This document shows, in pieces, positions 16,745-39,662 of a stretch of 43,566 nucleotides of DNA. The notes beneath the pieces were generated by a model. It did not search any database. It was not told where the DNA came from and saw only the letters and a list, made by a program, of their open reading frames with translations. The DNA comes from Chlorobiaceae bacterium (GTDB taxonomy: Bacteria > Bacteroidota > Chlorobiia > Chlorobiales > Chlorobiaceae). Each line of letters begins with the position of its first letter. Within the stretch, counting starts at the first letter, position 1. The position numbers were made by a program, and so were the translations under genes. Location: assembly GCA_013334925.1 (NCBI GenBank), contig JAAXWP010000020.1:1-43566 (forward strand), read 5' to 3'.

Positions 16745-16821
16745 GGACAATTAGCTCAGCTGGTTAGAGCGTTCGCTTCACACGCGAGAGGTCGTAGGTT
16801 CGAGTCCTACATTGTCCACCA
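16745..16821 (+). tRNA. tRNA-Val (anticodon CAC), CCA encoded
   Basis: The acceptor stem GGACAAT (16745-16751) pairs with ATTGTCC (16811-16817), followed by A and encoded CCA. The D-arm is TAGCTCAGCTGGTTAGAGC, the anticodon loop TTCACAC gives CAC, and the T-arm carries GGTTCGAGTCC. All arms fold canonically. The gene sits at the edge of the accessory region, but no copy of its 3' end is seen elsewhere in the window. Confidence 0.96.
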
Positions 16822-16988
16822 CCTCTCCCCTCCTGCGTTTTCAGAATTCCCGCTTTCAGCAAAAACCTCTGAGGGAAAAAAAGGGGAAAAAACCTGCCAT
16901 TTTTCTTTCACTTTGCCGCTCAGCGGCAGGAATATTCTCTGAGTCTGATCACACAGTAAAGGGGGCGAGCTCCATTTTCCTCAACGCT

Positions 16989-17300: not shown

Positions 17301-17348
17301 TGCGATTCCTCCAGCTGTTTCAGGTTGATTGATTGGTACGACGAATAG

Positions 17349-17600
17349 TCACGGATTACAGACTTTACAGGGCACATAACCGGCATCGATCGCGGCCTCT
17401 CTGCTACTGAATACCGCCGTGCAATGCGGACAGTCATAATATCGGCAGTCTGACGCATGGAACTTGCGAGTGTTTGTGTTGCCGTGGTAGAGGGCTCCTG
17501 CCGCCGCCGGTAATGAACCGCTCAAAACCGCAAGCATGGATACCAGAAGCAGTATAAACGCCACCAGCCCCATCGAACGAACCCTTGATGAACAAATCAT
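17349..17600 (-). CDS. Small secreted protein with Ada-like metal-binding (CRxxxxC...PCKVC) domain
   Basis: From ATG 17600 the protein is 83 aa. A signal peptide (MGLVAFILLLVSMLAVLSGS, cleaved near PAAAGA) precedes a compact domain 'YHGNTNTRKFHASDC' ... 'FSSREAAIDAGYVPCKVCNP'. This pattern (YxGNxxxxxFHxxxC...FxSREEAIxAGYxPCxxCxP) occurs at the end of thermonuclease-like and DNA-associated exported proteins and resembles the Ada N-terminal zinc site. Here an extra CPHC pair is inserted. The ATG overlaps the stop of the upstream 75-codon gene (ATGA), so the two are coupled. Confidence 0.72.
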   Translation of the reverse strand: MICSSRVRSMGLVAFILLLVSMLAVLSGSLPAAAGALYHGNTNTRKFHASDCRYYDCPHCTAVFSSREAAIDAGYVPCKVCNP

Positions 17601-17824
17601 CTCAACAGCTCCACGACATCGCATTCTTCGCACCGCAGTTCTCCACTGTAGTCATGATTCCGGAAAACTCCACACAGAATCATGAACCTGGATGTTGAGA
17701 ACTCCGTATTGAAACGGTACCGAAGCCCATATGCAGGATCACTCTCAACCAAGATCCTGACAGGAGCAGGTTGAAGGCGGTAGTTGCCCTTCGCTTGTTG
17801 GGCTGGATGGTGGTGATCAGGCAT
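17597..17824 (-). CDS. Small protein of unknown function, duplicated in this window
   Basis: A 75-residue protein starting MPDHHHPAQQAKGNYRLQP, with 'RILVESDPAYGLRYRF' and a C-terminal 'SRFMILCGVFRNHDYSGELRC' region containing CEEC-like cysteines (CEECDVVELL). I do not recognise the family. It overlaps the next gene by ATGA. A frameshifted homologue lies at 25141-25402, with conserved AQQAKGxYRxQP, GLRYRF and SRFMIL blocks, so this small gene has spread with its upstream DNA. The surviving coupling suggests this copy is functional. Confidence 0.55.
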   Translation of the reverse strand: MPDHHHPAQQAKGNYRLQPAPVRILVESDPAYGLRYRFNTEFSTSRFMILCGVFRNHDYSGELRCEECDVVELLR

Positions 17825-18160
17825 AGCGCAATACTGCAGGCTCTGGTTTGCCAGGGCTCGGTTCGTTACGATGTACTACAGAATACGCGCCAGTGAGAGG
17901 CAGGAACTATGTGGGAGGAACCGAAATATCCAGCGAGATGAGCGTTCAGCTAACAGCACTACTCGGGACACTACTACGGTAAATATACGGAGATTAATGA
18001 ATTGAACAAGAGGCGGACTGAGGAAGTCATGCCTTCAGATCCAGATGAAGAGGATCAAAAGCCACCTTAAATGCATCATAAACATCTTCTTGCTGAAGTC
18101 GCCAAAATGGCGTCACAATCGCACAGTCGAGACCAAGAGGGATTTTCCTTCCTTCAGGAT
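17825..18160. repeat. Copy 1 of a duplicated cassette (with 17597-17824); second copy at 25141-25740
   Basis: The stretch CGTTACGATGTACTACAGAA onward is ~85% identical to 25443-25610, same orientation. In both copies a 44-codon plus-strand frame is open (17871-18005; MYYRIRASERQE...TTRDTTTVNIRRLMN), but differences are mostly non-synonymous, so coding is doubtful. Beyond it the minus strand ends a degenerate reading frame in ...DLKA-stop in both copies, indicating a lost upstream gene. Confidence 0.7.
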
Positions 18161-18198
18161 GCCGATGATCTGTTCTGTGCTGTAACGCTTGTTTTCAT
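18143..18198 (-). pseudogene. IS3-family OrfA 5' fragment
   Basis: The minus strand reads HENKRYSTEQIIGILKEGKS in one frame, the unmistakable N-terminus of IS3-type OrfA (K-R-Y/F-x-x-E-Q-I-I-G-I-L-K-E). A perfect AAGGAGG (complement of 18207-18213) and an ATG at 18198 are still present, but that ATG is one base out of frame, as if one A had been lost. The match ends after about 19 residues, so this is only debris of an IS3 copy. Confidence 0.75.
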
Positions 18199-18263
18199 GC
18201 GTGTAACCTCCTTGGTTGATTTTAAGCTTTTTTCCACAACCAAGTAGTCTTGTTACACGGGCT

Positions 18264-18542
18264 CACGTCCCCTTTCTGCAGGACATTGATGACGTCAATG
18301 CATTGTATGCGGGAATCCTGGAAGGAGATCTGCTCATCGTAGACCGCGCCATCGAGCCACTCAATAACCACATTGTGATCGCGAGCATCAATGATGAACA
18401 GACAGTGAAGAGATTGCGGGTAAGAAAGGGAACCGTCTCCCTAGTACCTGAGAATGTAAACTACAAGCCTATCGAGATAACCGGCTAGATGGACTTTCGA
18501 ACGCTGGGAGTGGTTACGTATGTGGTCAGGAAGACGATATAA
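18264..18542 (+). pseudogene. umuD remnant (LexA/UmuD-type S24 peptidase, C-terminal half)
   Basis: The frame reads AGILEGDLLIVDRAIEPLNN, then 'VKRLRVRKG', 'LVPENVNYKPIEITG', a TAG stop at 18486-18488, and continues MDFRTLGVVTYVVRKTI. This is the conserved second half of UmuD-like proteins (G-D-L-L-I-V-D-R, PEN, F-x-x-x-GVV). The expected GDSM box with the catalytic Ser is corrupted to DDVNALY, and one internal stop is present, so the gene is dead. No umuC follows; IS630 is inserted 25 bases downstream. Confidence 0.8.
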
Positions 18543-18568
18543 AAACACCATACAAGAAAATAATCCTA

Positions 18569-19783
18569 GTGTCATGTCAGGATAAAATTGACGGATAAAG
18601 TCGTTTGAGTTTAATCCGTGCATCTTCGGTCGTGAAACGCCAGTTGATCACCGACTCTTTGTTGTTTCGTTCTTTCTCCCAGGCAACGACCTGACGGCGC
18701 ACTTCAGTAATGGTATCGATCCGGCGATTCAGGCACTGACCCGACAGCACCCTCAGTTCTATCTCGGCCATGTTGAGCCAGCTACCGTGTTTCGGGGTGT
18801 ATACGAATTCGAATCGATCCAACAATGCTCGGGCTTTCTTAGGCTTGAAGGTCTCATAGAGCGAACCCGGCTTATGGGTGTTCAGGTTGTCCATGACCAA
18901 AGTGATTTTTTCGGCATGGCGATACCGGCGCTCGATCGTTTCAAGAAACTTTGCCCAGTCCTGTTTCGTCCGATGGGTGGTTACGCTCACTATGCGTTTA
19001 CCGGCTAATGGTTCGGTCGCGATGAAAATGTTACAGACTCCTTTCCTGCTGTATTCGTAATCGTGACGGGCCAACTGACCCGGTTTTGGTGGAACTGGAA
19101 TTCTGGTTTCTGCAATCAACTGTTTCGGAGACTCGTCCATGCACACCACCGGATACAAGGGATCATACGGGAGTTTGTACAGCTCCAGAACGCTTTCCAT
19201 CTGGGCAACGAAATCGCCATCCTGGAGCGGAGGAATCACCCACCCTTCGACTTTCCATGGCTTGAGCTCGTTTTTTTTAACGCCTGTCGAATGGTTTCAT
19301 GAGAGATCTGATCAACATACTCCAGCTCAACCACCTTGTCGGCAAGCATGCGCAGCGACCAGCGCTTGTAACCGACCGGAGGTTCAGAACAGCTCAACGC
19401 AATCAAACGGGCTTCGAGATCTCCATCAACCCTTGGATGAAACGTTCTCGACGATGGTTTTCTGGTTAACACAGCATCCAAGCCATCTTCGACAAAACGT
19501 TTTTTGACTCGATCAATGGTTTTCATGCTAACGTTCAGAACTTGGGCAATCGTCTCATTGATTGATCGTTGCTTTTGGAATTTACCCTCGTCGCAGGCAA
19601 GCAGAATAAGGGCGTTCAGTACGGTTTGTGCCGCATGCGTTCCCTTGCTGCTGATGGCTTCAAGGTCTTGGCGCTCTTCCTGAGTCAGGGTCACCTTGTA
19701 TCGCTTCATAATCGCTCCTTGTTGGGGTTGATAATGAAGATAATATAAGATTATTATGCGACACTATTAGATTGACATGACAC
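18569..19783 (-). mobile_element. IS630-family insertion sequence
   Basis: A 13-bp perfect inverted repeat including the target TA is found at 18567-18579 (TAGTGTCATGTCA) and 19773-19785. The element is flanked by TA on each side (18567-18568 and 19784-19785), the TA duplication made by IS630/Tc1 transposases. The inner ~1.2 kb holds the transposase in two overlapping frames. Ends and transposase look intact, so it may be active or recently active. Confidence 0.93.
18577..19709 (-). CDS. IS630 transposase, two frames joined by probable programmed -1 frameshift
   Basis: The first frame (19236-19709, 157 aa) is the helix-turn-helix part (RSINETIAQVLNVSMKTIDR, then a second HTH). The second (18577-19239 and its 5' extension) is the DDE nuclease: 'VVCMDESPKQL', 'LVMDNLNTHKPGSLY' and 'HGSWLNMAEIELRVL' supply D, D and E. 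The frames meet at a run of eight A in the coding strand (GCGTTAAAAAAAACGAG, near 19271-19278); a -1 slip gives QALKKNELKPWKVEGW, restoring the normal transposase sequence. Such A-run slippage is known in IS630 members. Confidence 0.88.
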
Positions 19784-19832
19784 TAGATTTAAAATCATCG
19801 CACATCGTTCTATATCAAAAAAAATAAGTTGC

Positions 19833-20792
19833 TCATACTTTTTTAGCATATGGCTTTTTATCTATAATTGCACGCTGAAGCTTCTCCTTAAAAAACTGCT
19901 TCACACTTCCTTGCTTTTCAAGCAGTGCAACAATTTCCTCAAGATCACAGAGGACTATACTTTTTTGCACCAACGCATCTTTACATGTATCTATTGCCGG
20001 AACCGTATATCCTGCCTTTGAAATGATAATTCCACCAGCATGCCCTCTATTGAATACCTTAACTAGATGAGGCGATACTTCCGCTTTACCCAATGGCTCT
20101 CTCCACCACTTTATCTCTACTAAATACAAATACCCATCTATTTCCACAACTCCATCAATTTGCTCTAAAACCCCATTACCCTCATCACTTACAACTTCAA
20201 ACGCTTCACGAACCAAAATATCATCTGCATCAAATAAACGATTCATAACACCTTCCAACAGTTTGCCCCTTTTCTGAGCTTGACTATCAGGAAAAGCGAA
20301 AAGAGAATAAAGATCGCGCTTTATTTCCTCTAATAATTGCCGTTTTTTCTTCAAATCATTTATTTGATTCTCGCGATCCAACTGATACTTCTTAATTTCT
20401 CGATCCTTCTCCAAACGCATTCTAGTAAATGAGTCCTTAACATCAACCATCCTTCTTATTTCTGAGATAAGACCCTTGGCCTTAATCACATCATCAGGCC
20501 AACAAGTAGAAAAATCCTCAAATTCAACAACTCTTCTTATTATTTCTCGACGTTCACGTAAGGTCATCTCTCCGCGTTCATTTAATCGCGACAACACTGA
20601 ACGAACCATTTCATATTTATTAACACCATCGCCAGGCGCAGCAATTTTTTTCTCTAAATCCCTACAAATATCCGTTTCAACGCCAGCCCCTCTAAAAAAA
20701 CTGACCACTGATTTTTTGTATTTACATAGCAATGGAATTGTATTAACAAGCGACTCAAAAAGATCATGTGGATAATGATATACTATATCCAT
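19833..20792 (-). CDS. Mrr-like PD-(D/E)xK restriction endonuclease with N-terminal helical and coiled-coil region
   Basis: A 319-residue protein. Residues ~1-110 form a helical domain beginning MDIVYHYPHDLFESLVNTIP ('FFRGAGV' near 32-38) that resembles small effector-associated adaptor modules. Residues ~120-165 are a charged coiled coil. The C-terminal domain has the nuclease core: GKLLEGVMNRLF (E180), QIDGVVEIDG (D213), LVEIKWW (E226, K228), then 'GGIIISKAGYTVPA'. It probably cleaves DNA, perhaps in response to invading elements. A GGGGG run precedes the ATG. It is AT-richer than the core genes and lies between two umuD remnants. Confidence 0.78.
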   Translation of the reverse strand: MDIVYHYPHDLFESLVNTIPLLCKYKKSVVSFFRGAGVETDICRDLEKKIAAPGDGVNKYEMVRSVLSRLNERGEMTLRERREIIRRVVEFEDFSTCWPDDVIKAKGLISEIRRMVDVKDSFTRMRLEKDREIKKYQLDRENQINDLKKKRQLLEEIKRDLYSLFAFPDSQAQKRGKLLEGVMNRLFDADDILVREAFEVVSDEGNGVLEQIDGVVEIDGYLYLVEIKWWREPLGKAEVSPHLVKVFNRGHAGGIIISKAGYTVPAIDTCKDALVQKSIVLCDLEEIVALLEKQGSVKQFFKEKLQRAIIDKKPYAKKV

Positions 20793-21687
20793 CTATCCCC
20801 CCCATACTCTAAACATTAAAAAATCAAATCCCTTAACATTAATATTACGCATTTCAAACATATTGGACAAGTCTCCGACAATTGCGACAATTTAAACCCA
20901 TTCCACCATATAGTCATTCAGCATATATCACTTGATCTTGATGGGGCTTGACACCGGCGGAATCCTCAGCCCAGTGGCATGAATTTTGAAGAAGCATAGT
21001 GCTACTGCTAAGGAGACAAGGTCCAAAAATCATGCCTAAATGGACTTCCGGACTCTAGGAGTGGTGATCTTGATGATTATGAAGACGTAATATTCTTTAT
21101 CCATCAATAACATTATTTATTCCATAAAACAATTGCTGCAATTAATCTCGCCGTCTAAATGCAAGCCCAACCTCCTCCTGTTCTAAAAAATCTCTTCATT
21201 ATCATCAATCAACTTTTCACGATCATATTTTATCTTATCATTTATTTAAGGAAATCTCTTTCAGCATTTTCACTATTTAATTATGTAAGGCAAACTCTAC
21301 CCAAAACGATGCAAATACTATTAACATTTAATACATCTCACATCTGAACCTCTCATAGCTACAACCCCAGGATATTCATCATCGCGAAGCAATATTCGCC
21401 TCTTGAGTTGACCTAACATTGAGTCATAATATCACATTACAATTTCCAAGCAAATCCACTCGTTCTAAATCACAACGCCATCACCCAAGTCATCAATACT
21501 ACTTTTTCTCACACCACCCTTTTCATCACTTCATTTATCATATCCACTTTTTCAATGAACTTCAGAATTTCAAAGTTGTAATCAATTTAATCAGAAAGAC
21601 AGCGCGACAACAATACCTGTAAATAATATTATTTTATATCAATACACACGTACCGCCCAACTCAACATCCAATACCCAGTTCTAGAC
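20793..21687. other. AT-rich, C-biased intergenic stretch with no convincing gene
   Basis: About 0.9 kb with low G on the plus strand. Short ORFs (21159-21347, 21419-21622) have no ribosome-binding site or recognisable motif and are rejected. The one feature is a second umuD 3' remnant at 21040-21090, listed separately. Confidence 0.5.
21040..21090 (+). pseudogene. Second umuD 3'-end remnant
   Basis: ATGGACTTCCGGACTCTAGG begins a 16-codon stretch reading MDFRTLGVVILMIMKT-stop, parallel to MDFRTLGVVTYVVRKTI at 18489-18542. Both lie on the plus strand, so the pair forms a diverged direct repeat bracketing IS630 and the nuclease gene. Confidence 0.6.
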
Positions 21688-23328
21688 TCATACCATTCTT
21701 TTCTTTTTTATAACGTCAAAAACCATTTGTTCTATCTCCTGTATATGCCCAATCATCATCCCGAGCGTATTTATATTATTATTCGAACCCAACAGCCCCT
21801 TCATCTTCATTACATAATCCCCAGAAGAAATTAAAGCCGTTTTCATTTTTGTCCTTAAATATTTATGATAATAATACCATGCAAGCGTATCAAAAGCATC
21901 ATCATTCACATATCCACTCAACACAGCCGACTCTAACCTCTCGCACATCCGAACAGCTTTAGTATAAAATCTATCAGAGACAATCCTTTTCCTTGTCTCC
22001 CCTTTATCCCTTGTTGAGACTATATACCTATCCAAGGAATACCACGCCATATTATTAAGCAACTGATTATAATGCTTATCCGTTAATACTCCAGAACCCT
22101 TATTCTCTAAATATATACTTTCAGCCGCTTCTATTTCTTTTATAGCAGTACCTATATAATCTCCACCCAACTGCCAATAAATATACGCAAGCCAAAACCT
22201 TATCCTATACTGATTAAGAATATCTCTATCGCCGCTATTCTCCAATATATTCTCAGCCTCATCAAAGCAACTCAAAGCAACTTCATTCATCTCTTTATTA
22301 AAATACAACTCCCCCATCCTATAATACACACAATATCGTTCAGGAAATTTACGCAACACAGACTTATACTTCTGAATTGCATCATCATACCTCAAATCAT
22401 AAAAATCCATAAATGCTGATTCCATTAACAACCAATACCAAACATTTGGATCGCCCAAATCATCCTCGCTCATCGCCTTTTTTATATTTTCATACATAGC
22501 ATGCATCTTATCATCCCCCTCATTTCTAAGTGCCTTTTTAACGCCCACACAATACTCTTTATATTCTGCATATTTATCACCACCCCTTTTCAATATCTTT
22601 GGCAACAACTCATCTTCATACTCAAAATAGAACTTAGGCCGTTCACGACCATTCATATATCTTTTTCCGGCAGCCTCCTTGTCGGCAACATCCCTAAGAT
22701 AGGACAACATATCATCAATATTCTGCAACTCCTTTGCCAACAATAAAAAACTTTTTTTTATATACGGATGAGCACTTCCCGTCTTATATGATAGCGCATG
22801 CTCCAATTCACCCCAAACATCTTGAACTAAAGTCCTCAGCTGAAACTCTATATATAAATCATCAGAAGTATTAACCAAATAATGAATAGACTTATAGCCA
22901 GACACCTTTGAATCAACCAAAATAGAATGACCAGGATAATGCTTTTCCTCTGACTTTATAAGCGCGTCATACAAATCACTTTTTTTATCAAAATTATATA
23001 TTATCAATTCATGCAAATCATATTTCCTCTCCAAAAATACCCTTAACAAATAATCATGCACCGCAACTATATCGCGCTCAAAAAGACACAACAATCTCAA
23101 ACCGCCATAATCCGTAACTCCCTTATACGACCTACCTTTTCTTTTGGTTTTCAAAAAAACACTTTCTGGAGATTTTATCCTCCATTTTGAAGAATAAATC
23201 GGAACTGGACTTTCGCCATCTCCTCGCGCATCAAAAAACATTTTTTCCAACTCAATAAATTCAGCTTCGTATCGAGGCTTTATGTCCGATACATATTCGC
23301 GAATTTCATCTAGTGTCCCATTCCGCAT
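21688..23328 (-). CDS. RelA/SpoT-type nucleotide pyrophosphokinase domain fused to TPR repeats
   Basis: A 546-residue protein. Residues ~45-200 are a RelA/SpoT synthetase domain: 'GVTDYGGLRLLCLF' (Asp73 in the V-x-D-x-x-G-x-R motif), 'VSGYKSIHYLV' (Tyr145), 'YIEFQLRTLVQDVWGELEHAL' minus its last residue (Glu161, Glu175). All expected catalytic positions look present. There is no HD hydrolase, ACT or TGS domain. From ~290 on come TPR-like helix pairs ('YDDAIQKYKSVLRKFPERYCVYYRMGELYF', ~330-365). It might make (p)ppGpp, (p)ppApp or pyrophosphorylate tRNA; the TPR part may sense a partner. AT-rich codon use contrasts with core genes. Confidence 0.85.
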   Translation of the reverse strand: MRNGTLDEIREYVSDIKPRYEAEFIELEKMFFDARGDGESPVPIYSSKWRIKSPESVFLKTKRKGRSYKGVTDYGGLRLLCLFERDIVAVHDYLLRVFLERKYDLHELIIYNFDKKSDLYDALIKSEEKHYPGHSILVDSKVSGYKSIHYLVNTSDDLYIEFQLRTLVQDVWGELEHALSYKTGSAHPYIKKSFLLLAKELQNIDDMLSYLRDVADKEAAGKRYMNGRERPKFYFEYEDELLPKILKRGGDKYAEYKEYCVGVKKALRNEGDDKMHAMYENIKKAMSEDDLGDPNVWYWLLMESAFMDFYDLRYDDAIQKYKSVLRKFPERYCVYYRMGELYFNKEMNEVALSCFDEAENILENSGDRDILNQYRIRFWLAYIYWQLGGDYIGTAIKEIEAAESIYLENKGSGVLTDKHYNQLLNNMAWYSLDRYIVSTRDKGETRKRIVSDRFYTKAVRMCERLESAVLSGYVNDDAFDTLAWYYYHKYLRTKMKTALISSGDYVMKMKGLLGSNNNINTLGMMIGHIQEIEQMVFDVIKKKRMV

Positions 23329-23961
23329 AATAAAAAATATTTATAATTGATAATATCACCATACAGACACAACAACATTACCCCTATTCACAAATCATCA
23401 CACTTATAATTATGACTTGCAAAACTCAACACAAAACAATAAAACTCATTTCAGTTCCTAATACACCTATTCTTGATCACACCCATCTTACTCCCAATAG
23501 AGTCTCGCCAAATTCGTTAGAGACCATCCGTTCATTACCTCCATCTGAGATCACGAGATGGCGCAACTGTATCTATCGATTCTTTTACCGATTAAGGAAA
23601 AACTGCGGCGGTCGACTGATGCGATCCGTTCTCAAGCAGATAAAGGAAAAACTGACCCGTTCAACCATGACCATTTTTCTTTTAGCGCCACCTGAAATCA
23701 CTGCCGGATTGACTCTGACCATCCATTCTTTACTGACCAATGAAAAAAATCTGTCCTTCAACAGGGGCCATCATTTCTTTGGTGACGAAAAGGAAAACAG
23801 CGGCTTTCGACCAATACTATTTTCCTTTGGCCACTCAAGAAATCACGCCCATTACCACAAAAACGATTACCCCATTAGCTCCACATGTAATTACGGCCTC
23901 GTTTGACAGCAACCATCTTTACCTTAACCCCGAAAGGAATCTCGGTCTGATCAGCGCCCCA
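23329..23961. other. Intergenic stretch, no supported gene
   Basis: A 164-codon plus-strand ORF (23412-23906) has no ribosome-binding site or recognisable motif. The segment contains a short repeated phrase, AAGGAAAAACTG, at 23594 and 23642. Nothing else stands out. Confidence 0.45.
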
Positions 23962-25068
23962 CTACTTCCCGTTGCTCTGCCCATCATAAGCGTCCAGCAC
24001 CCCTAGGATCCTATCCGCATGCCGATAAAGGTCAGTCATTTTCTCGATCGGGATCCGCTCTTCTGCTTTCCCATCATGAACAGTCTGCGGATCGAAAACC
24101 CCCAGGTACTTTTGCTTCGTGTTAAACCAAAGTCGGCAAATCGGCTTCCGGTTGTTATCATCGAGAAGTACCCCCATATAGGATTTCGTGTCTCGATGAA
24201 CAATTCGCTCTGGATCCACTTTCTGAGCGCATATAGCCACAACGACCCGATATCCATCCAATTCCTCCTCTGTGGTCACAATGCCGTTATCTCCGACCTG
24301 TGGTGACAGCTCAGGAACTTCCTCTTCCAGCTTCTTTGCCAATGGTGCCGTATCCCTCTGAAGAGCAGATCTCAGGCGATCGTCGATCCGCTCATTGATG
24401 TATTCCAGAAACGCTTTGGCAACCAGCCTGGTGTAGCTGTCCTTCACAAAAGCTGTGAATTTGCCCTTCTGTGACGACATGGCGAAGAAATGCCGAACCA
24501 GTCCCTCGCTCGGGTCCTCCACCTCTGTGGCAATCATCTTCTTGATCTCGGACACACACTTCAAATCGCTGGCAGTCGTCAGCATCCGATCCAAATCAAA
24601 ATCATCCTTGGCCATCTTCTTCACCTCTGCCATACCAACCCCTTTCGGGCGCTCAAGATCAAGCTCAAGGAATGGCTTTTCGTCCATCTTGTTCGGCTCA
24701 TCCAGGTCAGAATAGAACCAGTATTGAGTCCCATTCGTCAATATGGAAATACGAGCCTTGGTGACCGAGAAGTAGCGGTAAAGCTGGCTGATGTTCTCCA
24801 GACTCAGATCCACACCAGACTTTTTACACTCGATCAGAATACAGGGCTCATCATCCTTCATGATGGCATAATCGACCTTCTCTCCTTTCTTTGATCCAAA
24901 ATCAGCATTGAACTCAGGAACAACCTCCTTCGGATTGAAAATATCGTACCCAAGAGCATCAATGAACGGCATTACAAGGGCGTTCTTGGTCGCCTCCTCC
25001 GTCAGTAAATGCTCTTTGATCTTAGGAATCCGCTGAATAACTGCGGCGATTTTTTCATCAAAACTCAT
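23962..25068 (-). CDS. Stand-alone HsdR N-terminal-type nuclease domain protein
   Basis: A 368-residue protein whose N-terminal ~150 residues match the type I restriction R-subunit N-terminal (HsdR_N) module: 'KNALVMPFIDALGYDIFNP' then GEKVDYAIMKDDEPCILIE with Asp66, Glu80, Lys82 as PD-(D/E)xK residues, and 'ISILTNGTQYWFYSDLDEP'. No helicase follows. The C-terminal part (DRLRSALQRD..., then 'ICRLWFNTKQKYLGVFD') recurs in such stand-alone proteins. They are common in defence islands and on mobile DNA, but the function is not settled. GGAG lies 6 bases before the ATG. Confidence 0.85.
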   Translation of the reverse strand: MSFDEKIAAVIQRIPKIKEHLLTEEATKNALVMPFIDALGYDIFNPKEVVPEFNADFGSKKGEKVDYAIMKDDEPCILIECKKSGVDLSLENISQLYRYFSVTKARISILTNGTQYWFYSDLDEPNKMDEKPFLELDLERPKGVGMAEVKKMAKDDFDLDRMLTTASDLKCVSEIKKMIATEVEDPSEGLVRHFFAMSSQKGKFTAFVKDSYTRLVAKAFLEYINERIDDRLRSALQRDTAPLAKKLEEEVPELSPQVGDNGIVTTEEELDGYRVVVAICAQKVDPERIVHRDTKSYMGVLLDDNNRKPICRLWFNTKQKYLGVFDPQTVHDGKAEERIPIEKMTDLYRHADRILGVLDAYDGQSNGK

Positions 25069-25140
25069 GACTTACTCCGAGATATTTTGTGATTATGAAT
25101 CATAGACCTGTTCCCGCATGAAAAACCGGTTTGGTCAACC

Positions 25141-25402
25141 TTATCGGTGTCCCCATTGGCTACAGATAGGATCTCCCCAAGCCTCCACAATATCACGACC
25201 ATCGATACACAGCTCTCCAACACCATGGTCATGGTGGCGTAGCACACAACGCAGGATCATAAATCGGGATGCGAAGATGGTCATCATCAAAGCGATACCG
25301 GAGACCGCACACAGGATCACCCTCAACAAGAACCTCGATGAGGCCTGGCTGACGGCGGTATTTGCCCTTCGCTTGTTGGGCTATATGGTGGTAAACATGC
25401 AT
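25141..25402 (-). pseudogene. Frameshifted copy of the 75-codon gene at 17597-17824
   Basis: From ATG 25402 the frame reads MHVYHHIAQQAKGKYRRQPG ... 'GLRYRFDDD', matching AQQAKGxYRxQP and GLRYRF of the intact copy. Near 25270 the match moves to another frame (ASRFMILRCVLRHHDHGVGE). One indel therefore breaks the gene. The Ada-like partner gene is absent here. Confidence 0.7.
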
Positions 25403-25740
25403 GGCGCAATACTGTAAGTCCCTGAGATGTCAGGGGCCGGTCGTTACGATGTACTACAGAATACGCGCCAGTGAGAGGCAGGAACAATGTGGGAGGGACC
25501 AAAATATCCAGCGAGATGAGCGTTCAGTTTACTGCACAACTCGGGATACGACTACGGTAAATATACGGAGATTAATGAATTGAACAAGAGGCGGACTGAG
25601 GAAATCGTCATGCCTTCAAATCCCGGAGAAGATGCTCAAAAACAGCCCTGTATGCATCAGGAGCACTCCACATAGTGAAGTCACCAAATATGCCATTTCC
25701 GTCGCACAAACGGATTTCTGCCAAGAAGAAGTGGTCTTAT
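25403..25740. repeat. Copy 2 of the duplicated cassette upstream region
   Basis: Homologous to 17840-18160 in the same orientation. The minus strand ends a degenerate frame reading GDFTMWSAPDAYRAVFEHLL, then RDLKA-stop (near 25613-25715). Copy 1 ends likewise in DLKA-stop. The 44-codon frame is at 25449-25583. Confidence 0.65.
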
Positions 25741-25848
25741 AAACGGTGGCACGCCCGAGGCAGGCAAACCCGATGGCGAAGACGATATCTTTGAGAAGTG
25801 ATTGCATGTGCGCGTCCCTTTAGGTATAACTTACCTAAGGGGTTACGC
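25715..25848 (-). other. Leader of a lost gene shared with 29290-29340, with an inverted repeat
   Basis: The minus strand from 25807 reads MQSLLKDIVFAIGFACLGRA, then TVYKTTSSWQKSV. The 29.3-kb locus carries GRATVN-stop-TTSFWQKSV. The upstream DNA holds TAGGTA-TAACT-TACCTA (25823-25839), an operator-like inverted repeat. Probably debris of one mobile cassette type. Confidence 0.4.
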
Positions 25849-25929
25849 GCAGGGAAGAGTTAGAGGAAAGGGCGAGAAGAATTTGGTTCTTTGTGAGAAT
25901 CGGAAATTGAAAATAAACAATTCATCACA

Positions 25930-28680
25930 TCATTTCTTCTTCATATTATTCAGCAACTGATTGAGATTTTCTGCAATCATTTTAGTAAGCGGATGCTCCT
26001 GACCCAGCTTTGACTCCACTATCCCCAACGCTCGCCGGAACAACGGCTCCGCCTCGACATACTTTTCTTGTTTGTATAGCGTCAATGCGAGATTGTGCAA
26101 ACCGTTTGCCACATCTGGATGATCGTGACTGAGCCGCTTTTCTCTGATTTCCAGCGCTTGCTTAAGCAAAGTCTCCGAGTCACCATACTTTTCTTGAGCC
26201 GACAACAAAACACCAAGACAAGTCAGGATTTTCGCCATATTTGGATGGTTTAAACCTTGCCTCTTTTCAATAATAATCAACGAGCGACGTAATAACGACT
26301 CCGCCTCAACGTACTTCCCTTGTTCGTAAAGCGTCAATGCGAGATTGTGCAAACCATTTGCCACATCTGGATGGTCTGATCCTTGCTGCTTTTCTCTGAT
26401 CATCAACGCTCGCCTAAATAATGACTCCGATTCGACAAACTTACCTTGGTTATAGAGCCATAATGCCAGATGGTTCAGGCTACTCGCCACGTTAGGATGG
26501 TCTGATCCTTGCTGCTTTTCATGGATATCTAATGCGCGACGATGCAACGCTTCAGATTCGTGATACTTACCTTGGGCATCCAGTAATATCGCAAGGTGGT
26601 TCAAATTAATAGCCACATTAGGATGGTCTGAGCCATAATGCATTAGCATAATTTCCAAGGCTCGCCTCAGTAAAGGATCAGCTACAGCATACTTCCCCTG
26701 ATTATAGAACAATAATCCAAGATTATTCAGAGATATCGCCACGAATGGGTGATCTTTCCCGAACTGCTTTTCTCTGATCACCAACGCTCGCATGTATAGC
26801 GTTTCCGCTTCAGCGTAATTGCTCTGAGCTCTTAGCGATTCCGCCAAATTGTTCAAGTTCACCCCTACATCTGGATTATCCGGCCCCAGTTGCATTTCCA
26901 AAATCCCCAACACTCGCCTCAACAATGCCTCCGCTTCGGCGTACTCGCCTCGCCCATGGCGATATGCTGCCATCCTATTCAATAAAACTGCTACGTCTAA
27001 ACCAGCACCACTATCATCAGCAAATTCTTTTGTAACCTTCTCCGCATGGGGTAACAACATAGCACATTTCGGCCAGCATGATGGCTCTGTATTGCCATCA
27101 CCAGGAAACAGTTCTTTCAGGACTTTGAGCATCGTTTCCCGGCATTGGTTTGTGAACTCAGTACCCATACAATCACACACTACTGCCTGCACAAGGCGGT
27201 GCAGACTTACGCTTTCCTTATCGGTGGTGATAAGCGAATATTTTTTCAGCTCCCTTAGAGCACGGTTCATCACGATGGGATCATCAAGCCCTTTCCAAGT
27301 TGAACACTGCACATACAAGTCACAGGATCTCAATAAGGTCATTGGCACCTCATCAGGTGCAACCACTGAACAAAGGTTCAATAGCTTCTCCGCCATTGGT
27401 TCAGCAATCCTCGCTTGTTCGATGGAAAGTCCAAATGTCACTTCGACCGTCTGCTTATGATCAAGAGGTCCGGATTCCTCTTTCCATAAGTCGCTCCGTT
27501 GCTTGTTGAACAATTCCAGATAAGCGCTCATGGCAATGCCACAAGCAACTATGTAGGCCCCAGCCTGTTCTAGCGCAAGCGGCAGATCACCAAGAGCGTT
27601 AGAAATCTCGTCAGTTCCAGCTTGATCCGTAATGCCCGTCCGTTTTTGCAGAAAACTGATGGATTCAGGTCTTGGCCATTCGACAATTTCATGAGGTGTG
27701 CCAAGTTGCCGCCAATCATGATTCTGGGAGGTGATCAAGACATGACCACCCGATGCCTGAGGGAGATAATCAGCAATGCTCTCGTAGTCTCTGGCATTAT
27801 CGAATACCAGTATCCATTTACCCCGATGATTTAGAGCATCCCGTACGGCTTTGATAACCTCTTCCTGTTCCTGTGCGTCTTTTTGCGGAAGGTTTAGCAA
27901 ATTCTCCCCAGCCAAGGCGACATAGTCTGCCAAAAGTGATGAAGCATCTTCTGCTCTCAGCCACCAGACCACATCATAGTGGACTGAATTCCGGTAGCAG
28001 TATTCTGCGGCGATTTGTGATTTGCCAACACCGCCCAGTCCATGAAGTACTTGTTTGGATGACGCTTTATGAGCAGCAATCTTGAAATGATACTGAAGGT
28101 TGGCCAAAACATCTTCTCTTCCAGTGAAGTTCGTATTGCGCTGGTATGGAACGTTCCAGAGAGGAGGAAGGGTTCCTGGAAACTTGAGCCCATTGAGCAA
28201 TCCTTGAACTGGCACTCCAGGAAACTTCGGTGCTGATACCGGAGGATGAGAACCGCCTTGAATTGAAGCACGAATCTTTGCCAGTAAGTTTGCTTGTGCT
28301 TCAGTAGCTTCGAGACCCACCAAATCAACGTAAATCAAGCTGGCAAACAACCCTGCTGGCATAAAATCCTCTATCCGTACGGGTATCAACAGTCGCTTAT
28401 TTCCTATAGGATCTTGAACCAATGCCGCTGCCCATTCGGGGTGTGTATACAAAGCATCAAGATAACGTGGAGAGAGAACCGCAAGTGTTCTTTCCGTCTC
28501 TATTGCCGCCCGATGCATTTCAAGGATGAAGTTCCCTCCAGCATGAAAATCCCATTTTTGAAGAACAAGCGCATACCCTGCCTCTTTCAATTGCCAGGCA
28601 ATCCACTCAGCCCATTGCTCATCCGCGCTGGAATAGCTGATGAAAAAGTCCTTTCTGACTGGATTTTCAGCGACATCCAT
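25930..28680 (-). CDS. TIR-NB-ARC-TPR protein (bacterial NLR/STAND-type)
   Basis: A 916-residue three-part protein. Residues ~10-140 are a TIR domain (DFFISYSSADEQWAEWIAWQ; 'SPRYLDALYTHPEWAAAL' with Glu82 at the position of the NADase catalytic Glu). Residues ~180-500 are an NB-ARC ATPase: sensor 'NFTGREDVL', P-loop GLGGVGKS (214-221), Walker B 'WILVFDNA', 'GGHVLITSQN', 'LGDLPLALEQAGAYI' and 'SLHRLVQAVV'. From 565 to ~900 are eight 42-residue TPRs of the kinesin-light-chain type (A-L-x-I-x-E-K-x-x-G-x-x-H-P-x-V-A). Such proteins oligomerise on ligand binding and may deplete NAD+. No clear Shine-Dalgarno is seen before the ATG. Confidence 0.93.
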   Translation of the reverse strand: MDVAENPVRKDFFISYSSADEQWAEWIAWQLKEAGYALVLQKWDFHAGGNFILEMHRAAIETERTLAVLSPRYLDALYTHPEWAAALVQDPIGNKRLLIPVRIEDFMPAGLFASLIYVDLVGLEATEAQANLLAKIRASIQGGSHPPVSAPKFPGVPVQGLLNGLKFPGTLPPLWNVPYQRNTNFTGREDVLANLQYHFKIAAHKASSKQVLHGLGGVGKSQIAAEYCYRNSVHYDVVWWLRAEDASSLLADYVALAGENLLNLPQKDAQEQEEVIKAVRDALNHRGKWILVFDNARDYESIADYLPQASGGHVLITSQNHDWRQLGTPHEIVEWPRPESISFLQKRTGITDQAGTDEISNALGDLPLALEQAGAYIVACGIAMSAYLELFNKQRSDLWKEESGPLDHKQTVEVTFGLSIEQARIAEPMAEKLLNLCSVVAPDEVPMTLLRSCDLYVQCSTWKGLDDPIVMNRALRELKKYSLITTDKESVSLHRLVQAVVCDCMGTEFTNQCRETMLKVLKELFPGDGNTEPSCWPKCAMLLPHAEKVTKEFADDSGAGLDVAVLLNRMAAYRHGRGEYAEAEALLRRVLGILEMQLGPDNPDVGVNLNNLAESLRAQSNYAEAETLYMRALVIREKQFGKDHPFVAISLNNLGLLFYNQGKYAVADPLLRRALEIMLMHYGSDHPNVAINLNHLAILLDAQGKYHESEALHRRALDIHEKQQGSDHPNVASSLNHLALWLYNQGKFVESESLFRRALMIREKQQGSDHPDVANGLHNLALTLYEQGKYVEAESLLRRSLIIIEKRQGLNHPNMAKILTCLGVLLSAQEKYGDSETLLKQALEIREKRLSHDHPDVANGLHNLALTLYKQEKYVEAEPLFRRALGIVESKLGQEHPLTKMIAENLNQLLNNMKKK

Positions 28681-28862
28681 GAGTTGAAATGGTTGAGTTA
28701 AACACCAGGGCCCATCTACTCAGAATTTACTCGATAATGAATAGACTTTTGAAGAATGGCAAGACGGCATATAAGTATTTTTCAAGGTTTATTATCAGAT
28801 AACATAATCTCCATCGGGAACATTAATCCCCCTTGACGCCTTTCAATACTCCTCAAACTTGT

Positions 28863-29325
28863 TTACTGAATATCCGCCTTTGCCAGCTCCCGCAGATACT
28901 CCCCATAAGGCGGTACCTTCCGAACGATCCATCCGGAATAGTAGCTCTCCCAGGTAGTACCCACCCCTACCCGAGTTGTTCTCCCGATGCTTGTGCTCGG
29001 GTGGTGCCGTGGCCAATGCCTGAATCTCCGGAATACTTGCCTGATCCGCCAACTCACGAAAATCCTTGAAGTTATTCCGACTGGTCTTTGATGTACATAA
29101 AATCACGGTTTTCACTGTCACGCTGTGAAAGTAGTCCGTCATCAGGTCTGAACGGTCCTCCTTCAGTTCTGCCACAATCAGCGATTTTGCTCCAGCTGCA
29201 TCCATCTTTGCCCATACATTCTTGCCAGCATCTTCGAGAGCCTTCACCCGTTCGGCCTCCGCTTCTCGCCGTTCGGTCTCCTGGCGTTGAACAGATTTCT
29301 GCCAAAAAGAAGTGGTCTAATTGAC
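28863..29325 (-). pseudogene. Truncated, frameshifted plasmid/ICE-type hypothetical gene
   Basis: The frame from 29325 reads TTSFWQKSVQRQETERREAE, then 'KNVWAKMDAAGAKSLIVAEL' and 'SDLMTDYFHSVTVKTVILCTSKTSRNNFKD', an uncharacterised C-terminal domain I associate with conjugative elements (WAKM, IVAE, D-x-x-x-DY-x-x-x-x-x-x-R/K-x-V-I-L, HRENYS). After HRENNSGRGGYYLGE the sense moves to another frame ending SGWIVRKVPPYGEYLRELAK-ADIQ-stop at 28863, so one indel near 28945 breaks it. The 5' end is lost, fused to cassette DNA. Confidence 0.6.
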
Positions 29326-29537
29326 GGTGGCACGTCCATTCAACTGCATCGATTTCGAGCTGCTTACCGACAATGCAACGTGATTTTTATGGTTACATGG
29401 GTTATTTCTCACTTTGCCGTAAAATTTACCTTCTTCAGGTGTCTATGAAAATAAAGCAGCTCCAATCCCGTAGATAGAAATAACATGATAAAGCAAAAGG
29501 CCCCGGATAATCCAGGGCTCATTTGCGCAAAATCTGG

Positions 29538-29569
29538 CCTGACTGAAAATCAGTTTTTTTTCAGTCAGG
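29538..29569 (-). terminator. Terminator of the PEGA lipoprotein gene
   Basis: CCTGACTGAAAA (29538-29549) pairs perfectly with TTTTCAGTCAGG (29558-29569) around an 8-base loop, ten bases past the lipoprotein stop. Confidence 0.8.
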
Positions 29570-29578
29570 TGTTTCATT

Positions 29579-29995
29579 TTACTTTTTCAGCTCAGCAGTA
29601 GAGGCATTGCTGAGCGGAGCCAGCTTGACAGATAGCGGATTCGGTTTATGAGTTTTCGTAGAGCCTGTTCCGGCATCAACAGCGGCACCAATAAGACCAC
29701 CAAATATAAGGTTACCAGCTAACGCTGCACCACCATTGGTCGTGCTGGTCACCATTGTCTCTACTGGTTCGTAACCATCCTTTCGGATCTTTACGTACAG
29801 ATTATCACTTCGCTTCACCTTGAAGCTCGTTGGCGTTTTTCCTTTCATACCGTTTGAAAGCTCCACATCTGCTCCGGGGGGATCTGATTCAATTACAAAA
29901 GCTTCAGATGAACCACGGGTAATGGTTGCGCATCCAGAAAATAAAAATGCAGACGATGCGATAAGAAGCGCTCCAAAAACAGAAGTTTTATTCAT
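29579..29995 (-). CDS. PEGA-domain lipoprotein
   Basis: A 138-residue protein with a lipoprotein signal (hydrophobic ALLIASSAFLFSGC, lipid Cys22). The mature part starts ATITRGSSEAFVIESDPPGA, then 'VELSNGMKGKTPTSFKVKRSDNLYVKIRKDGYEPVE', a PEGA fold (DPPGAxVxL...GxTPxxF...V.KxGYxP). A Gly/Ala-rich segment 'GGAALAGNLIFGGLIGAAVDAGTG' follows, typical of this lipoprotein subgroup and able to insert into a membrane. Outer-membrane role not defined. A strong terminator follows. Confidence 0.85.
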   Translation of the reverse strand: MNKTSVFGALLIASSAFLFSGCATITRGSSEAFVIESDPPGADVELSNGMKGKTPTSFKVKRSDNLYVKIRKDGYEPVETMVTSTTNGGAALAGNLIFGGLIGAAVDAGTGSTKTHKPNPLSVKLAPLSNASTAELKK

Positions 29996-30177
29996 GATTG
30001 GGGGGTTTGGGAGTTGTCATCCTCAGTTGAGGAATACGGTAAATATACTTTCCGAATAGGAATCGCACAAACAACATCGCTAAAAATACTGCATTTCTTC
30101 ACTCGCCCCGCAGATGAAGAGATAGGGAAGCTGTGTCTTTATCGAACAGGTGCTCGGAGAAGCGCCATATACTCTGA

Positions 30178-30414
30178 AAGGATGATGCCTGCAGGAATGC
30201 GGTTAACCAGAGCTCATGAATTGCTCAAACAGCACTGCACGCTGATGGGGTTACCTATGGAAGCTCTTCAGATCGGCTGCCGCAGTATAAGAACACACCG
30301 CTCCGCAGGGAGAGCCGCCCAAAGGACTGGACGAGATAGGTCTATCTCATCAGTCGTTGACAGATTGCCGAGGATTTCAAGAGCTTAGGTGAGCCAAATG
30401 CTTCAGAGCTGACG
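30178..30414. repeat. Direct repeat A (~237 bp), partner at 39312-39547
   Basis: AAGGATGATGCCTGCAGGAA begins a segment about 90% identical to 39312-39547 in the same orientation. The plus strand reads MMPAGMRLTRAHELLKQHCT, then 'LMGLPMEALQIGCRSIRTHRSAG'; the other copy keeps the frame slightly longer (SRPEDWTR-stop), this one has an indel. It looks like the remnant of a mobile or duplicated gene; family not recognised. The rest of 29996-30484 holds no gene. Confidence 0.85.
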
Positions 30415-30484
30415 ATAGAACCTGTTCGATAATTACCGCAGTCGCTGATGTCTCGCTATGGGGAACAGACTGAATTAGCAACCA

Positions 30485-34369: not shown

Positions 34370-35383
34370 TCACATATATCTGATCCCGATCAGCGCGGCC
34401 GCGACAAACTGATTGATCAGAAAAAGGATGTTGTTGACCACCTGAAAGCGCAGGAATGCGTTGTGTTCATGGACTTCGCTCTTGCCGATCGCATTGCCGA
34501 AGCCGTCGCTGACCGCCCCCTGCATGAATGACGCGCCGGTCCGGGGATCGCGGTAAATCGGCACCTGCACCAGAATGTTGATGATAAGGGAGATCACGAC
34601 CATATACATCAGAAACCTGAAGTTCCACTGCCATGCGAGCAGAGCGAAACCGGCAAAGGCCAGATCGATGATGATGAATGCCGTCAGAAAGGTGTAACGA
34701 GGCCCGATCAGCACGGTCAGCGATTTCATGCCGCTCTCGGCGTCCCCCTTCTGCGACTTGAAATCGTTCATGATGATCAGGGACATGGCCATGAAGAAAT
34801 TCAGAATCGCAAGCCACATCACTTCAGGCCTGATTTCACTGAACAGTACGTTTGCTGAAAGGTAGGTAATGAAACCGTAAGAGATACCGACTGCCGGGGC
34901 GGACAGGAAAATGTTCTTTTTGAGCTTGAACGGAGGTGCTGAATAGACGTAACCGAGGATCAGGCCTGTCGTCATGCAGATTATAAAGACGAGTCCTCGC
35001 TGGCCGCCGATGTGATACGCGATACCAATACTGATGGTCATGGCGGCAAGCAGAACGCTCACCCAGTTCCAGATAGCCTCCTTTTCGGAAATCCGTCCGG
35101 AAGGAATGGGGCGGGTCGGTTCATTCAGGCGGTCAAGCTCGAGGTCGAAATAGTCGTTGACCGACTGGCTGAACCCGGTACCAAGCGGACCGTACAGAAT
35201 GAACAGCAAAAAAAGGAGCAGGTAGTCGTGAAAGGTTGGCTGCATGGCTCCCGATCCCATGACACCACAGGCAAGACAGGGAAACACACTGATCCAGGTA
35301 ACAGGATCGAGAAGCTCGATGTGCGCCTTGACCTTGTCCTTCAACCCCAGTGAAGAGGTGAACTGCATGCTTGTGGTATTCAT
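34370..35383 (-). CDS. bchK: Bacteriochlorophyll c (chlorosome pigment) synthase, UbiA family
   Basis: A 337-residue membrane prenyltransferase paralogous to the BchG of this window. Prenyl-diphosphate motif 'NDYFDLELDRLNEPTRPIPSG' minus its last residue; second Asp motif 'LIIMNDFKSQKGDAESGM'; about nine helices. It has the 'IELLDPVTWISVFPCLACGVMGSG' start typical of chlorophyll synthases. In Chlorobium, BchK attaches farnesyl to bacteriochlorophyllide c/d/e. BchG is assigned to the copy at 7.1 kb and BchK to this one because it follows a chlorosome gene and a ring-methylase-type gene in one operon (36-base gap). Assignment between the paralogues is by context. Confidence 0.82.
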   Translation of the reverse strand: MNTTSMQFTSSLGLKDKVKAHIELLDPVTWISVFPCLACGVMGSGAMQPTFHDYLLLFLLFILYGPLGTGFSQSVNDYFDLELDRLNEPTRPIPSGRISEKEAIWNWVSVLLAAMTISIGIAYHIGGQRGLVFIICMTTGLILGYVYSAPPFKLKKNIFLSAPAVGISYGFITYLSANVLFSEIRPEVMWLAILNFFMAMSLIIMNDFKSQKGDAESGMKSLTVLIGPRYTFLTAFIIIDLAFAGFALLAWQWNFRFLMYMVVISLIINILVQVPIYRDPRTGASFMQGAVSDGFGNAIGKSEVHEHNAFLRFQVVNNILFLINQFVAAALIGIRYM

Positions 35384-35419: not shown

Positions 35420-36805
35420 TCAAAGATACATGGATGGTTTCAGGGAACGGGTAAAACGATTCATATGCAGGTTGGCAAGCCATACCCAGTTCAGGCGCTT
35501 TCCTTTCATTCGCCGAAGTATCGCTCCCCCACTGTAGACCTCTCGCTGCACTTTCACGAAGTTCTCGAGGAATTTTTCAGTGCCCATGCCTTTGGGCTCG
35601 AACATGTAGTGGTAAGTATCGTATTTGTCCCAATCCGAATGACGAAGCCTCGGCTTCATCTCTTCGTAGTAAGGGGTTCCGGGAAACGGAGTCACCAGGG
35701 AGAAAACCGGGAAATCGATCCTGTTCTCCATGATGAAGTCATAGGTCATCTGAAAGCTTTCCAGGCTGTCGTTGTCGAAACCGAACATGAAGTACCCCTG
35801 GATGGCAATCCCCTGGTCATGCAGATTCCGAACAATCGCCGAGTAGTTTTCCAGCCTGTTCGACCCTTTGTGCACACTTTTGAGTGTTTCAGGATTCAGG
35901 GACTCGAATCCGATGCTCATAAGGTCACAGCCGGACCATGCGGCAAGTCTGGCAATCTCCGGATCATGGAGGAAATTCATGGAGATATTGGCATTCCAGC
36001 GGATCCCCAGCCATCCCATGTGGCTGAGAAGATCCTTGAAATAGCCCGGACGAAAACTGATGTTGTCATCCATGAACGAGAAATGAACCGCATTTTTCCC
36101 GAGTCGACTCTGATGGTAATGCATCTCTTCCATGACGAGTTCGATATCACGGAAGCGGTAATTCTTCCCGTAGATGGTCGGTGTCGTGCAAAAATTGCAT
36201 CCGACCGGGCACCCCTTGGTCGCCAGGATGGGAATCCTTGAACTGTACTTACTGCTGCTCCGGCTGCGGAGCGCATACGAGAAGTCCGGCCTTACCATGG
36301 CGTTCATCGGTTTCAGCGACTCGGCACGGTAGACAGGCTTCATAGTCCCGTTGATGACGTCCTCTGCAAGTTCTGGCCACACCGACTCGATTTCGCCGTA
36401 AACGACGCTCGTAGCGTGTGACTGTGCCTCATCGAGGGACATGGTGGGATGCACACCACCGAGCAGGACTGTTTTGCCCTGTTTTTTCGCACTCTCGGCA
36501 ATGTGATAGACTCTCCGGGCATTCAGGGTCCGACAGGTCAGGGCAACAACGTCAAAACCGGAAAAATCGTCGGGTATGCGATCGCCCAATCGCTCATCGA
36601 TAAAATCGACGTCAAACAGTTTTCCAGCCAGGGTCGCAACCATTACCAGGTTCAGCGGCATGCTGACCCGTCCTGAGTCAACCATCATGCTGGTGTTGCT
36701 TACCGGTTGAATGAGCAGCCACTTCTTGCCCGATTTCCGGGCAGCTGCCTTCAGGTGATGCAGCTCGGATGTTGTTTCAGATGCAGGGATAATATCGGCC
36801 GTCAT
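35420..36805 (-). CDS. B12-binding radical SAM protein, bacteriochlorophyllide ring methyltransferase-type (BchQ/BchR group)
   Basis: A 461-residue protein. Residues ~25-150 form a cobalamin-binding-like Rossmann domain ('LLIQPVSNTSMMV', 'VVALTCRTLNARRVYHIAE', 'VLLGGVHPTM'). The radical SAM core follows with CPVGCNFC (Cys199, 203, 206). BchQ and BchR methylate the C-8 and C-12 side chains of chlorosome bacteriochlorophyllides and belong to this family with BchE. The operon position between csmE and bchK supports a chlorosome-pigment substrate. I cannot tell BchQ from BchR, or exclude a third specificity, by eye. Confidence 0.8.
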   Translation of the reverse strand: MTADIIPASETTSELHHLKAAARKSGKKWLLIQPVSNTSMMVDSGRVSMPLNLVMVATLAGKLFDVDFIDERLGDRIPDDFSGFDVVALTCRTLNARRVYHIAESAKKQGKTVLLGGVHPTMSLDEAQSHATSVVYGEIESVWPELAEDVINGTMKPVYRAESLKPMNAMVRPDFSYALRSRSSSKYSSRIPILATKGCPVGCNFCTTPTIYGKNYRFRDIELVMEEMHYHQSRLGKNAVHFSFMDDNISFRPGYFKDLLSHMGWLGIRWNANISMNFLHDPEIARLAAWSGCDLMSIGFESLNPETLKSVHKGSNRLENYSAIVRNLHDQGIAIQGYFMFGFDNDSLESFQMTYDFIMENRIDFPVFSLVTPFPGTPYYEEMKPRLRHSDWDKYDTYHYMFEPKGMGTEKFLENFVKVQREVYSGGAILRRMKGKRLNWVWLANLHMNRFTRSLKPSMYL

Positions 36806-36859: not shown

Positions 36860-37117
36860 TCAGATCCCGAATCGTCGGCCGATCTCCTTTGTCGGAGTGG
36901 CATAACCGGATACGCTTGGTGAGCTGCCGCGATAGGCGCCCGACCCTTGCGCATTATTGTACAGTTGCGGATAGGCGTTTGCCCCAAGTCGCTTGGTGCA
37001 TTTTCCGACATTTTCCAGATAGTCACCGACAACCCACCAGTGGCCATCGATAAACACTTCCAGAAACCTGCCGTAAGCCTCGGCACCTTGCACAAACGCA
37101 CCGTTAAAATCTTTCAT
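36860..37117 (-). CDS. csmE: Chlorosome envelope protein E (CsmA paralogue)
   Basis: From ATG 37117 the protein is 85 aa: MKDFNGAFVQGAEAYGRFLE, then 'VFIDGHWWVVGDYLENVGKCTKRLGANAYP' and 'GSSPSVSGYATPTKEIG'. The 'E-V-F-I-D-G-H-W' segment corresponds to the CsmA helix whose His (here His26) is the proposed BChl a ligand, and the end matches the C-terminal extension trimmed in CsmA. The N-terminal GAFVQGAEAYGRFLEVFIDG run is what I recall for CsmE. It builds the baseplate or envelope of the chlorosome. It heads the csmE-radical SAM-bchK operon, 54 bases from the next gene. Confidence 0.85.
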   Translation of the reverse strand: MKDFNGAFVQGAEAYGRFLEVFIDGHWWVVGDYLENVGKCTKRLGANAYPQLYNNAQGSGAYRGSSPSVSGYATPTKEIGRRFGI

Positions 37118-39547: not shown

Positions 39548-39662
39548 CTGAATCCGAATGTGTCTTACGTCAGTCACTTGCGCCCCCTTTTCACTTATAA
39601 AAAAGGGCATTCATACCAGTTACGATACGAATGCCCCGTTTCAGAGATCAGATTTCACCCAA

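Follow-up and report, generated by a model that had tools for sequence, protein, structure and literature searches.

A TIR-NB-ARC-TPR protein in a prophage remnant of a green sulfur bacterium, probably an anti-phage receptor

What does a single protein that joins a TIR domain, an NB-ARC switch and a long array of TPRs do in a green sulfur bacterium? A sequence-only reading of the 43,566 nucleotides of DNA analysed here (the window) proposed that it is an anti-phage sensor whose TPR face recognises an invader molecule. The host named in that reading holds up: the window carries a bacteriochlorophyll c synthase gene (34370-35383, 604 bits) and its relatives are Chlorobiaceae. We asked what kind of protein the gene encodes, where it sits, how its homologues vary, and which function best explains all of this.

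The gene starts with ATG, and its 916-residue frame is unbroken: all conserved motifs are kept and the match contains no stop (Table 1). The nucleotide-binding motifs claimed from the sequence were all located, the P-loop at exactly the proposed residues with Lys220, and Pfam places an NB-ARC match at residues 212-322 (1.4e-5). The Walker B motif reads Asp294-Asn295 instead of Asp-Asp; because F293-D294-N295-A296 is invariant in 18 homologues, we regard this as a trait of the family. The MHD position reads His-Arg-Leu, and His494, Arg495 and Leu496 are likewise invariant (18 homologues). The eight 42-residue repeats, also as first proposed, start at residues 562, 604, 646, 688, 730, 772, 814 and 856; the Pfam TPR_10 model matches in eight stretches, the array aligns to KLC1 at 1e-52 and to kinesin-light-chain structures at ~36-44% identity, and the units are 29-71% identical to each other in amino acids. 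With P-loop, Walker B, GLPL-like motif, MHD-position motif and winged helix present, followed by repeats, the protein counts by sequence as an NLR-like STAND (AP-ATPase/NB-ARC) protein.

Table 1. Positions in the window of the receptor gene, its domains and motifs, and the neighbouring features.
Feature	Position	Strand	Basis
TIR-NB-ARC-TPR coding sequence (bacterial NLR-like, NF040586-type), 916 aa	25930..28680	-	ORF and profile matches
TIR_2, residues 12-129, predicted effector	28294..28647	-	Pfam 3e-31 and model secondary structure
Glu82 codon, NADase glutamate position	28435..28437	-	family alignment and TLR TIR structure alignment
NB-ARC nucleotide-binding part of switch, residues 180-330	27691..28143	-	Pfam, family alignment, fold match
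P-loop GLGGVGKS, residues 214-221, Lys220	28018..28041	-	translation
Walker B WILVFDNA, residues 289-296, Asp-Asn type	27793..27816	-	translation and homologue alignment
GLPL-like GDLPLAL, residues 364-370	27571..27591	-	translation and homologue alignment
DUF7779 / winged-helix-like part, residues 427-507	27160..27402	-	Pfam 1.5e-10
MHD-position motif LHRLVQ, residues 493-498	27187..27204	-	translation and homologue alignment
Eight 42-residue kinesin-light-chain-type TPRs, residues 562-897, predicted sensor	25990..26997	-	Pfam, KLC similarity, unit alignment, model
Truncated phage gene, homologue of C-terminal half of 258-aa ORF between terminase and portal of C69 prophage	28843..29290	-	81% DNA identity over 28877-29290
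Phage DNA just upstream of portal gene, start of small membrane-protein ORF (ORF seen in L098); other flank of receptor	25756..25904	-	89% DNA identity
48-nt direct repeat, copy one	25709..25756	+	88% identical copies
48-nt direct repeat, copy two	29290..29337	+	88% identical copies
HSDR_N-type endonuclease, phage family phrog_4225	23962..25068	-	9.6e-116
RelA/SpoT-domain protein, 546 aa, weak TPR matches, ~35% G+C DNA	21688..23328	-	profile search
Mrr_cat restriction-endonuclease-like protein	19833..20792	-	profile search
Insertion sequence, with 38-nt inverted repeats enclosing HTH and DDE_3 transposase ORFs	18561..19791	-	profile and repeat search
tRNA-Val(cac); synteny with five relatives stops at its 3' end	16745..16821	+	synteny comparison

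The glutamate proposed as the NADase residue of the TIR domain is exactly where it had been placed. The helix that follows 'SPRYL' contains Glu82, which pairs with the Glu of 'WCQYEL' when the domain is aligned to a TLR TIR structure. Across the family alignment this residue almost never changes; the exception seen is a copy that has no TIR. TIR models of short Argonaute systems show weak similarity to this domain. In an AlphaFold2 model of the whole protein (pLDDT 80, pTM 0.64), Glu82 falls within helix 79-89, the helix after beta-C, a placement like that in TIR NADases within a TIR part of moderate confidence. A TIR-only model built without an alignment was poor (pLDDT 50) and was set aside. 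When the full model was searched with Foldseek, the best match was the STAND-TPR protein 6mfv (E 1.8e-13), followed by kinesin-light-chain TPRs; CED-4 and NRC2, a plant NLR, were among the matches too. Profile searches assign residues 180-912, the switch plus the repeats, to NCBIfam NF040586 ("FxSxx TPR protein") at 506 bits against a cut-off of 300, far beyond chance. The domain order, which the sequence-only reading had singled out as worth testing, is already described (PMC7159879, PMC9806590, PMC9122126), and the receptor is a fresh example of an established kind of protein.

One of two new findings, absent from that earlier reading, is the prophage setting of the receptor, near Mrr, RelA/SpoT and phage-endonuclease genes. 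The DNA directly downstream of the gene (25756-25904) and directly upstream of it (28877-29290) matches another contig of the same genome, C69, at 89% and 81% identity, and on that contig the two flanks lie 101 bp apart beside the portal gene. Since C69 encodes a terminase large subunit, a portal, a head maturation protease and a CI-like repressor there, we take this region to be a prophage. In an IMG/VR viral contig 94-96% identical to C69 (L098), 555 bp of different DNA occupy this interval; the position is thus variable among these phages. The two 48-nt direct repeats bound the stretch of phage DNA around the receptor gene, inside which the phage genes are truncated, and further stretches of the window match C69 (17698-18028, 18307-18546 and 25287-25606). 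From these alignments, the receptor gene occupies a variable cargo position in a prophage fragment, either carried by the phage or a later entrant into the remnant. Searches with the receptor protein returned no match in IMG/VR; phage records gave matches to its TPRs alone, in Wolbachia phage WO.

On a larger scale, conserved gene order on the left ends at tRNA-Val(cac) and on the right begins, in other relatives, at a response regulator at 30485, so that 16822-30484 forms a variable island, in good part prophage debris. The RelA/SpoT-domain gene within it may be another phage- or defence-linked enzyme of alarmone type; PADLOC gives it a weak candidate match. To the right, direct repeats (30178-30446 and 39312-39578, 81-96% identical, 9.1 kb apart) bracket the response regulator, a histidine kinase, the bacteriochlorophyll c synthase and a radical SAM gene. 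Upstream of the radical SAM gene, 36959-37117 recurs at 81-83% identity in three relatives (L056, L057, L058), at a different place 4-5 kb from tRNA-Val; it may have a regulatory role or act as an RNA element, and Rfam gave no match.

Across the order, the NF040586 cut-off is passed in 21 of 98 genomes, a patchy distribution, and those inspected homologues that have a TIR keep Glu-Trp at the catalytic position. Five genomes carry a full-length homologue upstream of rmuC-sbcD-sbcC; the rmuC frame of G020 was located by protein search. Elsewhere the same site is empty, with the ferredoxin and rmuC genes adjacent and nothing between them (G019), or lacks the receptor (G004 and G014), or holds a frame that by eye resembles a Y-family polymerase (G012). 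With empty, filled and otherwise occupied versions of one site, the receptor gene is therefore accessory there. At the rmuC site of G009 (L092:6081-6710), a 209-residue frame that begins as a TIR is followed by a 420-aa ORF; this may be a remnant or a stand-alone TIR. We considered whether proximity to rmuC-sbcDC marks a functional link and rejected it as the sole reading, given the genomes without a receptor at the site. No partner gene is common to all the homologues.

The other new finding comes from the rmuC-site genomes, which make an unusually clean comparison: the same site, with near-identical neighbours and switch, holds different effectors and sensors. Where measured between these genomes, RmuC is 93-96% identical and the switch 81-88%, against 37-56% for the TPR part, while the TIR is either 84-90% or 48-55% identical. 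Between copies with different TIRs, codon identity climbs from ~40-65% to >80% across residues 141-220. Such steps are what recombination in the linker would give, and point to domain exchange. In G069 (L009, also L028), an alpha/beta-hydrolase (Abhydrolase_6, DUF676-like) replaces the TIR on the same switch and TPRs, and this version adjoins a pair of genes for a ResIII restriction subunit and an N6_N4_Mtase methylase (res/mod, L028:3711-7909). Judging from these alignments, the N-terminal effector has been exchanged on a conserved switch.

Homologues also travel on plasmids. On the conjugative plasmid pPAES01 of Prosthecochloris aestuarii DSM 271 (L067), one recombinase gene stands between the homologue and a restriction endonuclease gene; ~5 kb from this homologue there is a diversity-generating retroelement (avd, reverse transcriptase and formylglycine-generating-enzyme-family genes). 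On Methylobacterium indicum pVL1_5, two homologues flank a DUF4231 gene, and an abortive-infection family gene lies ~6 kb away. In several phyla, homologues on plasmids bear the annotation fxsT. In the neighbourhood survey that the sequence-only reading called for, prophage, plasmid and restriction-gene contexts occur, and many homologues sit among housekeeping genes. That reading would have been refuted by homologues confined to housekeeping contexts; some do lie at housekeeping sites, yet they are accessory insertions there.

Variation among the TPR units is concentrated at groove positions 2, 9, 12 and 13, together with 29, 31 and 37; the groove is close to neutral in pN/pS, and the remaining positions are strongly constrained. 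For pairs of units within genes, pN/pS is 0.99-1.34 at positions 2, 9, 12 and 13 (a set narrowed from the canonical six after entropy had been seen), with an interval that includes 1, compared with 0.27-0.42 elsewhere; for the window gene alone the values are 0.64 and 0.37. The same groove pattern is found in 23 TPR-only control genes of the same order. In this clade, groove variability goes with the repeat family as such and supports no claim specific to the receptor; we dropped it as proof of an arms race, since TPR-only proteins behave alike and the interval includes 1. Chlorobiaceae encode many such TPR-only proteins of kinesin-light-chain type (L074, L080, L081, L082 and others), with 4-15 units and grooves as variable as the receptor's, and many have N-termini that by eye resemble signal peptides.

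What function best explains these observations? We think it probable that the protein works inside the cell as an abortive anti-phage receptor of the bacterial NLR (STAND) type, and that a decayed prophage holds its gene as accessory cargo. The TPR superhelix would bind an invader-derived or invader-altered protein in its groove; binding would release the NB-ARC switch, whose nucleotide state would change, and the protein would oligomerise. The TIR domains, clustered or paired in this way, could then use Glu82 to consume NAD+ or to make an NAD-derived signal, and the loss of NAD+ or the signal would halt the cell ahead of phage multiplication. The anatomy and the genetics are observed here; target binding, oligomerisation, use of NAD+ and protection are proposed by analogy with a TIR-STAND-TPR protein of validated function and with TIR receptors of plants. 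The prophage location suggests that a lysogen would be protected against competing phages.

Several lines of evidence favour this anti-phage reading: the domains and motifs, the register of Glu82 and the Foldseek matches; the phage flanks and the Mrr, RelA/SpoT and phage-endonuclease genes nearby; the patchy distribution and the presence-absence at the rmuC site; effector exchange and TPR divergence set against near-identical RmuC; the hydrolase version beside a res/mod system and the plasmid homologues near restriction or abortive-infection genes; and a validated analogue whose domains come in the same order (PMC9122126). The sensor proposed from the sequence therefore stands as the favoured explanation, without the support of groove hypervariability, which TPR-only proteins share. 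Other observations weigh against it. Many homologues sit among housekeeping genes, the five beside rmuC-sbcDC would fit a role in DNA damage as well, the Walker B motif is of the Asp-Asn type, and PADLOC returned no full-length match to the receptor. The glutamate at the catalytic position is also found in the TIR domains of TLRs, which signal by scaffolding.

A different explanation is that this is a signalling or stress STAND protein, AfsR-like or acting in DNA damage or replication, with a TIR that serves as a scaffold or makes a regulatory nucleotide instead of acting as an abortive effector. Besides the five homologues directly upstream of rmuC-sbcD-sbcC, it draws on a weaker similarity of the TPR region to AfsR and on the fact that Glu-bearing TIR domains are not all known NADases. 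We judge it unlikely, given that the receptor comes and goes at a site where rmuC is conserved, that its effector is exchanged, that prophages and plasmids carry it and that its homologues share no common partner. Distinctly unlikely, in our estimate, is a receptor for kin or non-self discrimination (allorecognition) or superinfection immunity that senses another lysogen or plasmid, not a lytic phage. Prophage carriage agrees with this idea, as does the parallel between a TIR or alpha/beta-hydrolase on an NB-ARC-TPR chassis and the fungal sesB-like/NB-ARC/TPR receptors studied for non-self recognition (PMC4986451); no partner or trigger gene was identified, however, and nothing separates the idea from general anti-phage defence.

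The family name raises another possibility, that the receptor is the TPR/NB-ARC/TIR component of a conflict system that processes FxSxx-COOH peptides. In actinobacteria, TIR-AP-ATPase-TPR proteins are coupled to FxSxx-type conflict systems (PMC7159879); these NF040586/fxsT proteins share the switch and TPR sequence family with our receptor, as the 506-bit match records, and some have an N-terminal TIR. Unlike them, the Chlorobiaceae receptor is found in an order where none of the 98 genomes, its own included, has the FxsB radical SAM partner (TIGR04269) over the cut-off, and no peptide-processing neighbourhood was seen. The FxSxx-COOH peptide model (TIGR04268) also matched in 0 of 98 genomes, in a search that had no positive control. 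The radical SAM gene of the window (35420-36805), which we considered as a partner, best matches HpnJ, a P-methyltransferase family and BchE (B12-type) and adjoins the bacteriochlorophyll c synthase gene. Even on a Streptomyces plasmid, fxsT-annotated genes have no annotated FxsB or peptide genes within 9 kb. Because FxsB is absent over the cut-off in all 98 genomes, we reject membership in an FxSxx system, which we consider highly improbable, and do not take the family name as a function here. A non-functional relic in a decaying prophage is just as improbable: the flanking phage genes are truncated and the region holds an insertion sequence and repeat debris, whereas the receptor frame is intact and keeps its motifs.

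Beyond the single gene, we offer a broader proposal more tentatively. Green sulfur bacteria may hold a series of such receptors at the rmuC-sbcDC site, in prophages and on plasmids, in which recombination has joined one conserved NB-ARC switch to three or more effectors (two kinds of TIR and an alpha/beta-hydrolase) and to fast-changing TPR sensors. This would be a bacterial counterpart of the modular NLR repertoires of fungi, with TPR divergence setting which invader is recognised. The rmuC-site series could show which part decides specificity and which the killing output.

Among known systems, a validated anti-phage protein (PMC9122126), the TIR-NLR of E. coli P4-like satellites, has the same arrangement within one chain: N-terminal TIR, central STAND NTPase and C-terminal TPRs. 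It too is cargo of a mobile element at a variable defence site, and related proteins there have SIR2 or nuclease domains in place of the TIR. The E. coli protein differs in being experimentally validated, and the likeness is drawn from domain order and description; the Chlorobiaceae element, by comparison, is a decayed tailed-phage prophage, and its TPRs are of the kinesin-light-chain type. The Avs and bNACHT anti-phage STAND proteins offer an analogy in how they work, with sensor repeats, a STAND switch and an N-terminal effector, but the receptor's switch is of NB-ARC type by Pfam, and no Avs or bNACHT/NACHT-type PADLOC model matched the receptor at E <= 0.01. TIR-NB-TPR proteins have been described for plants, bacteria and fungi, and the plant TNPs (TIR-NBARC-TPR) share the domain order; a maize TNP needs its P-loop and TIR catalytic site for cell killing, and the likeness of plant TNPs to bacterial proteins lies in the nucleotide-binding domain only, not in the TIR or TPRs (PMC9806590). 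In fungal NB-ARC/TPR NLRs such as Podospora Pa_2_10340 (sesB-like/NB-ARC/TPR; PMC4986451), the TPR units within a gene are more alike than in the Chlorobiaceae receptor, whose groove pN/pS of ~1 is not clearly above that value. Both share kinesin-light-chain-type TPR arrays that vary on the concave face, and a chassis that takes an alpha/beta-hydrolase or other effectors.
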